Part shown: positions 5,491 through 23,723 of the stretch, in pieces
How the letters are laid out: every line of letters starts with the position of its first letter
Position numbering within the stretch: position 1 is the first letter of the stretch
Assembly: GCA_016195275.1 (NCBI GenBank)
Contig: JACPZZ010000029.1
Span: 1 to 52,229, forward strand
Direction of reading: 5' to 3'
From: Candidatus Aenigmatarchaeota archaeon
Lineage (GTDB): Archaea > Aenigmatarchaeota > Aenigmatarchaeia > JACPZZ01
Length of the DNA: 52,229 bases
The notes under the pieces: generated by a model
What the model was told of the DNA's origin: nothing
The model's database searches: none
The model's input: only the letters and a program-made list of their open reading frames with translations
Translations under genes and position numbers: made by a program

Positions 5491-5619
5491 GTCTGGCTGG
5501 CGGCCAAAGCGGAAGGGAAACATCCGTACCCATATCGAACACGGCAATTAAGACTTCCTGCGATCTAAGCTGTAGTTGGATGCAATATCCTGCGAAACTT
5601 AGGACGCTGCCTGCCGCCT
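5491..5619 (+). rRNA. rrf: 5S ribosomal RNA
   Basis: The segment GGCGGCCAAAGCGG is followed by the highly conserved CATCCGTACCC and CGAACACGG blocks, which are diagnostic of 5S rRNA. The 5' strand at 5494-5504 pairs with 5606-5616 to close helix I with one mismatch. A T-run at 5619-5623 follows the 3' end and could terminate transcription. No 16S or 23S gene is adjacent, so this 5S is unlinked from the other rRNAs within this window and sits beside tRNA genes. Ends are accurate to a few nucleotides. Confidence 0.92.
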
Positions 5620-5709: not shown

Positions 5710-5951
5710 GCCTGGGTAGTGTAGCGGTCTACCACGCGGGACTGTCAAATAAAATCCCTTTCTTTTTCGAAGAAAGGTCTTTTAAACAAAGGAAACCTTT
5801 GGTTCCCTTGCACAGTTTTGCTGTTGCAAAACCTGTGACCCCAAAGAAAACGAACGATCATACAGGGAAAGATAGACCGGTAAGAAAACCGCAGGTTTTC
5901 TTGCGGTACAGAACTCCCGTAACCCGGGTTCAAATCCCGGCCCAGGCGCCA
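5710..5951 (+). tRNA. tRNA-Asp (GTC) with a 166-nt intron and encoded CCA
   Basis: Exon 1 (5710-5747) gives acceptor GCCTGGG, a D-arm and the anticodon arm ending in GTC-A37. Exon 2 (5914-5951) gives CTCCCG, the T-arm with loop TTCAAAT, acceptor CCCAGGC, G73 and CCA. The intron 5748-5913 sits at canonical position 37/38. A textbook BHB is visible: exon CTGT (32-35) pairs with intron ACAG (5908-5911), with 3-nt bulges CA|A and AA|C marking the cuts. The intron holds several short hairpins, for example a perfect 9-bp stem at 5882-5902. Confidence 0.93.
5748..5913 (+). repeat. Hairpin array filling the tRNA-Asp intron
   Basis: Hairpins in order: 5758-5776 (7 bp), 5787-5801 (6 bp), 5811-5836 (TTTTGC/GCAAAA core, imperfect outside) and 5882-5902 (9 bp, loop GCA). 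The last stem, AAGAAAACC/GGTTTTCTT, belongs to the AAAACC/GGTTTT family that recurs elsewhere in the window. Confidence 0.7.
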
Positions 5952-5959
5952 AACCATAT

Positions 5960-6008
5960 ATTAGAAAACCATTCAGGTTTTCTAATTGAGAAAACCGCGG
6001 GTTTTTCC
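5960..6008 (+). repeat. Two hairpins between tRNA-Asp and tRNA-Lys
   Basis: 5960-5986 is a perfect 11-bp hairpin, stem ATTAGAAAACC with loop ATTCA. 5988-6008 is a GAAAACC-type hairpin with loop GCG. The first stem is identical to that of the hairpin at 29836-29860, which has a different loop (TTG). They lie outside the mature tRNAs, in what is probably the shared precursor. Confidence 0.75.
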
Positions 6009-6092
6009 AATCACCAGAAAGATTACATGAAACATTCAAAACGAACCGAAAATGCAATATCAAAATTAAATTTGATGTTCGATTCGTTTTAC

Positions 6093-6378
6093 GGGCCCGT
6101 AACTCAGCCTGGTAGAGTATCGGGCTTTTAAGCGAGTTGTCGGATGAAACAGGAAGTAAACTGAAGTATACCAATGGTATGCTTCGGTCTGAACCTGTTT
6201 CGATCAGCAAAAGTTTAAAAGAGCTGAGACCGTTCAAACTTTGAGACAAAGTTTGATCAAAGGGGGCGGTTTATGATCAAAAATCAAAACAGATATGAAA
6301 AATCAGAAATAATTGATATCAGTTTTGATTTTACGTAAAGAAACCCGAGAGTCGTGGGTTCAAATCCCGCCGGGCCCA
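6093..6378 (+). tRNA. tRNA-Lys (TTT) with a 212-nt intron
   Basis: Exon 1 (6093-6130) gives GGGCCCG, D-stem ACTC/GAGT, anticodon stem TCGGG and loop C-T-TTT-A37. Exon 2 (6343-6378) gives A38, CCCGA, variable GAGTC, T-stem GTGGG/CCCGC with loop TTCAAAT, acceptor CGGGCCC and A73. CCA is not encoded. The BHB is complete: exon CTTT pairs with intron AAAG (6337-6340), bulges TA|A and AA|A. The intron (6131-6342) contains long stems at 6146-6201 (with a nested 12-bp stem at 6161-6187), 6234-6256 (perfect 10 bp) and 6280-6332. rpoH begins 18 nt after this tRNA. Confidence 0.93.
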
Positions 6379-23656: not shown

Positions 23657-23694
23657 AGGTTCAGGCGACTGAAGCAGACATGGTCTGCTTCTAG
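23657..23694 (+). other. D-loop insertion in tRNA-Ser, probable second intron
   Basis: The insertion has a perfect 9-bp hairpin (GAAGCAGAC/GTCTGCTTC, loop ATG) flanked by ACT and TAG, plus an alternative small stem TTCAG/CTGAA closed by GCGA. If not spliced, the D-loop would be about 50 nt long. The same ACT-GAA...TTC-TAGC frame surrounds the hairpin at 50655-50675. Confidence 0.6.
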
Positions 23695-23723
23695 CGGCCA
23701 AAGGCGCTGGTCTGGAATGTATA

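Follow-up and report, generated by a model that had tools for sequence, protein, structure and literature searches.

Two neighbouring tRNA genes of a Candidatus Aenigmatarchaeota archaeon are interrupted by introns of 166 and 212 nt packed with hairpins, and the locus raises the question of how such introns arise and grow, and why they persist. We analysed a whole stretch of DNA of 52,229 nucleotides (the window), which is contig C1 of a genome of 1.07 Mb that is 83% complete. In the explanation that we favour, at a probability of roughly three in four, both insertions are BHB introns, the tRNA-Lys intron is a self-methylation guide that grew by insertion of mobile hairpins and the tRNA-Asp intron shows growth only. 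Computation shows how the introns are built, that the core is conserved and covaries, that a hairpin family exists and how presence and absence differ between species; splicing, methylation, protein binding and transposition are inferred. The guide core of the tRNA-Lys intron is the main point beyond an earlier sequence-only reading of this DNA, in which it had gone unnoticed.

Two introns downstream of the 5S rRNA gene

The rpoB' of the window shares 94% identity with rpoB' of three Aenigmatarchaeota bins, and the gene order 5S rRNA, tRNA-Asp, tRNA-Lys, rpoH, rpoB is common to the window and all three. The taxonomic order is represented by five genomes, all belonging to one genus (G000, the window genome, to G004); the 5S-Asp-Lys region of G001 is locus L040, that of G002 L041 and that of G004 L039 (identical sequences). 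The two genes and their introns lie in the window as follows.

5710-5951, forward strand: tRNA-Asp(GUC) gene, intron included (sequence reading of the acceptor, D, anticodon and T arms)
5748-5913, forward strand: intron of tRNA-Asp, 166 nt at position 37/38, with three to four hairpins (sequence, ARAGORN)
6093-6378, forward strand: tRNA-Lys(UUU) gene with intron (3' end according to ARAGORN)
6131-6342, forward strand: tRNA-Lys intron, 212 nt, position 37/38, BHB CUUU/AAAG (sequence; position 38 is 6343)

The sequence-only reading had placed introns of these lengths at position 37/38, with correct coordinates. Both are inserted after A37 and have the anatomy of archaeal BHB tRNA introns, with a 4-bp central helix and two 3-nt bulges: C32UUU35/AAAG with bulges UA^A and AA^A in tRNA-Lys, and C32UGU35/ACAG (ACAG at 5908-5911) with bulges CA^A and AA^C in tRNA-Asp, where the inner helix is weak, just about 2 bp (A-U, U-G). 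The description of the motifs as exact is slightly too strong for tRNA-Asp. Both pre-tRNAs fold far below dinucleotide shuffles (z -5.1 for Asp and -8.6 for Lys; 0/200 shuffles each). Judged by their sequence, the two insertions are BHB introns, which the archaeal splicing endonuclease would remove. Of the hairpins that had been called perfect, one within the introns is 100% (6234-6243/6247-6256) and the other intronic ones are 87-90%; a further 100% hairpin (5960-5986) lies between the two genes, outside the introns. That the introns hold no ORF was borne out: open frames across them extend over tRNA exons and intergenic DNA with no gene-like signs, and an intronic ORF was rejected. No Rfam family matched the introns, and matches to C/D families all lay far below gathering scores.

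Uninterrupted gene copies, from which the mature tRNAs might come instead, were found for neither tRNA in the 83%-complete genome, where a UUU pattern search gave a single tRNA-Lys(UUU) match and a second tRNA-Asp copy was not found. Default ARAGORN and Rfam detected neither gene; with introns allowed, ARAGORN returned 166 nt for Asp and 210 nt for Lys, the latter one register off and labelled 'Stop'. The remaining ARAGORN tRNA insertions in this genome measure 6-91 nt, all shorter than the Asp and Lys introns, and its isotype labels are partly wrong there (e.g. Ser labelled Glu).

Hairpins that lengthen the introns

The same tRNA-Lys intron measures 85, 103, 194 and 212 nt in four congeners, and the main differences are hairpins at three spots: upstream of the guide, on the tip of the stem that joins the boxes (guide and boxes are described below) and upstream of the 3' junction. 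The hairpins of the window introns, and two further window matches to the repeat family R1, are listed here.

5750-5784, forward strand: hairpin that opens the Asp intron (hairpin search)
6146-6201, forward strand: nested hairpin module GAAACAGG..GUAAACU-hairpin-GGUCUGAA..CCUGUUUC in the Lys intron, its inner part an R1 copy (R1 match 6155-6197, 26.6 bits, E 1.1e-5)
6234-6256, forward strand: added perfect hairpin UCAAACUUUG-AGA-CAAAGUUUGA (hairpin search)
6280-6332, forward strand: third of the added hairpins, missing in L043 and L045 (hairpin search, congener alignment)
23659-23699, reverse strand: R1 match, 23.8 bits
50643-50683, reverse strand: R1 match, 29.4 bits

Through the 15-mer GTCTGAACCTGTTTC, taken from the Lys intron, inserts were found in 5S rRNA (G001), tRNA-Ser (G004, twice) and tRNA-Leu (G002). 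The hairpin pattern of this family, R1, gave 23 rows in the five congeneric genomes and none in a reversed control. Twenty copies align as ACU-R-GAAACA-N5-loop-N5'-UGUUUC-AGUC, where the N5 pairs vary on both sides; 94.6% of their pairs are formed, with 34 compensatory cells against 11.7 in shuffles. The R1 model matched 54, 32, 72, 59 and 109 times in the five congeners at E <= 0.01 (among 150 candidates scored per genome, and with some hairpins counted on both strands). At E <= 1e-5 it occurred in 5 of 156 genomes of the class, all of this genus, and in none of the other 151.

In the orthologous Asp introns, which ARAGORN gives as 55, 64 and 88 nt in L039, L040 and L041, CUUU(UU)/AAAG hairpins resembling that at 5750-5784 open the introns of L039 and L040, and such hairpins also open other tRNA introns of the window genome (by eye). 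Furthermore, AAAGUUUGAUCAAA of the Lys intron hairpin at 6234-6256 recurs exactly in the tRNA-Cys intron (C34:30577). A second recurrent hairpin type, roughly NNNCUUUUU-loop-AAAAAGNNN followed by (A/U)CAAAA and with differing stem ends, was seen by eye in introns of L006 (Cys), L020 (Leu), L032 and L112 (Ala) and L025 (Arg), as well as in the window Asp and Lys introns. As a genome-wide repeat, AAAGTTTGATCAAA was rejected: it has four exact places (two tRNA introns, one within an open reading frame on C15 and one between open frames on C33) and two with one mismatch, and at up to two mismatches 16+18 places stand against 12+16 in the reversed control.

Inserts in tRNA-Ile, tRNA-Ser, tRNA-Leu and 5S rRNA genes

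In a tRNA-Ile-like gene of G000 (UAU by eye), the 5' anticodon stem is interrupted by a 60-nt insert that includes an R1-type hairpin, and this insert is absent from four gene copies in G001, G002 and G004. Its flanks, AGA-GCGA-CG^U ... UCGC-AU^G-UCU, form a strict BHB (by eye), and the predicted excision leaves exactly GAGCGACGGTCTTATAA, the sequence of G001, G002 and G004; the R1 model scores the insert at only 20.0 bits (E 0.0007, L214 286-337). An R1-type hairpin seems to have formed a new tRNA-Ile intron in G000, an intron gain by hairpin insertion. Literature in which similar introns occur at different tRNAs and positions likewise implies insertion as the source of intron gain, whereas in this genus what inserts belongs to a family of short dispersed hairpins with copies outside genes too, and one gain can be followed with base precision. 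At position 37/38 of the same gene, the intron hairpin has the loop TTT in G002 and an R1-like module instead in G001 and G004 (17.6 bits, L219 494-534), and two further insertion sites vary between species. The proposal of growth by hairpin modules in the sequence-only reading is upheld by this loop swap, by the hairpins that set the length of the Lys intron among congeners and by the membership of one of them in the genus-wide repeat family R1. Altogether the tRNA-Ile-like gene (L214 reverse strand, L048, L050, L046, L219) has up to four insertion sites whose presence or content differs among G000, G001, G002 and G004.

Class II tRNAs (Ser GCU, Leu) whose variable arm holds a long insert containing R1 were also observed (L006 1246-1408, L081, L085, L078). 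A strict BHB is found at this arm only in the tRNA-Ser of G000 and a relaxed one in a single Ser gene of G004; the other Ser and two Leu variable-arm inserts have none, and we do not claim that all inserts are introns.

The 5S rRNA genes of G001, G002 and G004, upstream of tRNA-Asp, carry hairpin inserts in the helix IV loop, and the window 5S gene (5496-5615) has no insert. Each of the three inserts has strict BHB ends, and its excision would leave a pentaloop, equal in size to the loop of the window 5S, so that they may be introns; these ends are suggestive, since shuffled inserts satisfy BHB and pentaloop as well, 55-78 times in 2000 trials per insert, and the three inserts are mutually related. 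We regard them as candidate BHB introns. The 5S rRNA expansion segments described in PMC7812874 and PMC7530397 are likewise hairpin inserts in archaeal 5S genes, whereas those of the congeners carry R1-type hairpins and strict BHB ends. A passage of PMC7812874 holds that computation alone cannot settle what insertions in 5S genes are. A literature search over titles and abstract openings brought up no account of BHB introns in 5S rRNA.

The positions of R1 copies bear on their mobility. When 92 listed R1 places were compared with 78 tRNA places, 26 proved to have a tRNA within 100 nt, against 0.65 expected under uniform placement; 18 of the 26 are on the 5' side, and in 14 of these only 0-4 nt separate the edge of the model from the first base of the tRNA. 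With further copies upstream of 16S and 23S rRNA, this would fit an immobile R1 made of duplicated functional elements of stable-RNA leaders, such as processing or transcription signals. Such a reading also suits the Y1 (IS200/605-type) transposases, which exceed the cut-off in only two of the five congeners, with one strong case each in G000 (C8:16637-16981, about 1.3 kb from an R1 place) and G004 (C5:95358-95714) and none in the incomplete genomes G001-G003; a Y1 transposase does not accompany the repeat in each copy-bearing genome, as would be expected of IS200/605-related REP or MITE elements. However, 12 of the 18 5'-side places are in the opposite orientation, copies also lie in introns, variable arms, 5S rRNA and far from tRNAs, and presence or absence varies at orthologous sites, which makes an immobile R1 rather unlikely, though it keeps some weight. 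REP, MITE and IS200/605-related palindromic repeats are short hairpins scattered over a genome, with copy numbers from tens to about a hundred. R1 resembles them in all these respects and is, as expected of REP or MITE elements, a conserved hairpin dispersed at different sites in sister genomes; it differs in being enriched beside tRNA genes, in being present inside RNA genes and in that no linked transposase has been shown. In the explanation that we favour, transposition of R1 is the probable source of its copies. In L212, an R1 hairpin lies about 240 nt upstream of a 16S rRNA (760-1934) that covers model positions 1-1478 in just 1175 bases and is shortened or misassembled.

The core of the tRNA-Lys intron

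Alignment of the Lys intron of four congeners revealed four fixed islands, the remainder being lineage-specific: the 5' junction, GCUUAAAAGAGCUGA-AC (GUUUAAAAG.. in the window), GG.GGUUUAUGAUCA and ACGUAAAGAAA. The second island includes an antisense to the anticodon loop followed by CUGA, the third includes a C-like box, and a stem joins both. The layout is thus a 9-nt antisense, two nucleotides, a D-like box, a covarying stem, three nucleotides and a C-like box, which in the window (guide test, covariation) lie at these positions.

6213-6221, forward strand: guide GUUUAAAAG, antisense to C32UUUUA37 and the first intron bases
6224-6227, forward strand: D-like box CUGA; the fifth nucleotide upstream pairs with U34 (6127)
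6228-6271, forward strand: stem joining the D-like and C-like boxes (6228-6234 with 6265-6271), with the added hairpin at its tip
6273-6279, forward strand: C-like box AUGAUCA after a 3-nt bulge, k-turn-like

Box C/D guides direct methylation at the fifth nucleotide upstream of the D or D' box (N+5 rule), their boxes C (RUGAUGA) and D (CUGA) form a kink-turn, and a second C'/D' motif is usual in box C/D sRNAs. By the N+5 rule, the wobble base U34 would be the target of the window guide. Its D-like box is CUGA, and its C-like UGAUCA deviates from the consensus UGAUGA. A second C'/D' motif is not conserved among the four congeneric introns (by eye), so that we do not claim the core as a box C/D sRNA, and L043 and L045 have no D-like box downstream of the C-like box (by eye). 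The core likely works like a box C/D guide.

Across the class, tRNA-Lys(UUU) patterns matched in 41 of 156 genomes: one is cut by a contig end (G022), ten have no 37/38 intron, one has 13 nt, and 26 gave parsed introns of at least 25 nt. The remaining three (G145, G149, G151), which a second, T-arm insertion kept out of script parsing, also carry UUUAAAAG, two nucleotides and UUGA by eye. Among the 26 parsed introns, the guide is present in 21 (4.98 expected from dinucleotide shuffles), guide and D-like NNGA in 20 (1.39 expected) and guide, NNGA, stem, three nucleotides and GA in 18 (0.27 expected), the latter spanning 11 genera in 7 families. In these 18, stem pair 1 is formed in all, with five pair types, pair 2 in all and pair 3 in 16, and the guide pairs with intron base i2 in 17, each with 0/2000 column shuffles, a significance overstated because the compared rows are related. 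D1-C6 is paired in 12 of 18 (P 0.007) and is C against C in the four congeners; D2-C5, paired in 5 of 18, shows no covariation (P 0.75). The N+5 position is U34 in 14 of the 18, window included, and the other four aim elsewhere. The core is wholly absent from the Lys introns of G074 and G075, G039-G041 have an A-rich variant rejected by the core test, and G054, G100 and G103 each fail one core test. The compensatory stem changes among relatives to which the sequence-only reading had looked are present across the Lys introns: compensatory changes in guide and stem occur across the 11 genera and 7 families while flanking hairpins vary. The structured RNA which it had proposed as an alternative to growth holds for tRNA-Lys, where the conserved RNA is this small C/D-like core and not the hairpins; in the tRNA-Asp intron no guide was seen and the conserved core was not found.

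The nearest known relatives are tRNA-Trp introns, guides for C34 and U39 according to passages of PMC4090602, PMC7994747, PMC6313347 and PMC2584109. The described tRNA-Trp box C/D guide (sR50; Haloferax, Pyrococcus) also has, next to C/D-type boxes in the intron, an antisense to the anticodon loop of the same tRNA, with position 34 as target, whereas the Lys intron points at U34 and has a single guide with a single pair of boxes where the Trp intron has a dual guide for C34 and U39; its boxes are degenerate, and hairpins have grown around its core. The sRNAs that PMC7994747 records for the first anticodon position are directed at Leu(CAA), Leu(UAA), Met and Trp, and 'Lys' is absent from its main text; the review passages name intron-encoded self-guides in tRNA-Trp only, and titles and abstract openings of a limited literature set gave no report of a tRNA-Lys intron guide. 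The tRNA-Trp intron of the window genome reads UUGGAG-CG-AAGA-GGC-GAAA-GCC-GAUGA, a layout like the Lys core and aimed at C34 (by eye).

In the mechanism that we propose, the 9-nt antisense would pair before splicing with the anticodon loop and the first intron bases, and the D-like and C-like boxes would form a kink-turn recruiting putative L7Ae, Nop5 and fibrillarin, which would 2'-O-methylate U34. As the BHB and the guide pairing both use C32-U35, they are mutually exclusive and an order is imposed: BHB refolding, then splicing, would follow methylation. Short mobile hairpins, R1 and others, may have inserted at the three tolerant spots, and the intron would for this reason have grown around its core; for the Asp intron the growth part alone would apply.

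Alternatively, the core could be no methylation guide: anticodon and intron would pair in cis, in a hairpin that sets the time of splicing or conceals the anticodon, and the k-turn-like part would bind L7Ae or nothing. The pairing takes in i1-i2 and therefore exists in the precursor only, it competes with the BHB helix for C32-U35, and the boxes are degenerate, all of which favours such a hairpin. Yet it would have no need of a D-like box with constant spacing, of the 3-nt bulge, of GA in each strand or of stem covariation (18/26 against 0.27 expected), the spacing places U34 at N+5 in 14 of 18 introns, and for other archaea the passages cited above describe guides in tRNA-Trp introns; we hold this alternative to be improbable. 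That the introns are merely inflated by hairpins, as first read, and the Lys core is functionless ancestral sequence is very improbable: length changes fast among congeners, the Asp intron has no core and similar hairpins occur in other tRNA introns of the window genome, but compensatory changes in guide and stem persist while the hairpins around them come and go. An assembly artefact or pseudogenes, conceivable for metagenome bins and a genome 83% complete, can practically be dismissed given the 5S-Asp-Lys-rpoH-rpoB synteny and the intact exons with 7/7 acceptor pairs common to four bins, the Asp and Lys genes being the only copies seen.

Beyond the proposed self-guiding Lys intron, a wider and tentative reading, to which we give a little less than even odds, is that R1 is a mobile hairpin spreading as a BHB-spliced intron: it would land in tRNA and 5S genes, bring or complete a BHB so that the host RNA survives, nest in older introns and make archaeal introns from scratch, including the candidate 5S introns, and the Lys intron would keep its self-methylation guide as a reason to stay. 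One genus offers testable answers to both the origin and the persistence of introns in archaea, the former through a hairpin family with insertions readable by presence or absence and a predicted excision exact to the base, the latter through a Lys intron kept across the class, apparently for guiding modification of its own wobble base. An extra T-arm insertion was also observed in the tRNA-Lys genes of further class members (L071-L074, L201, L204-L206).
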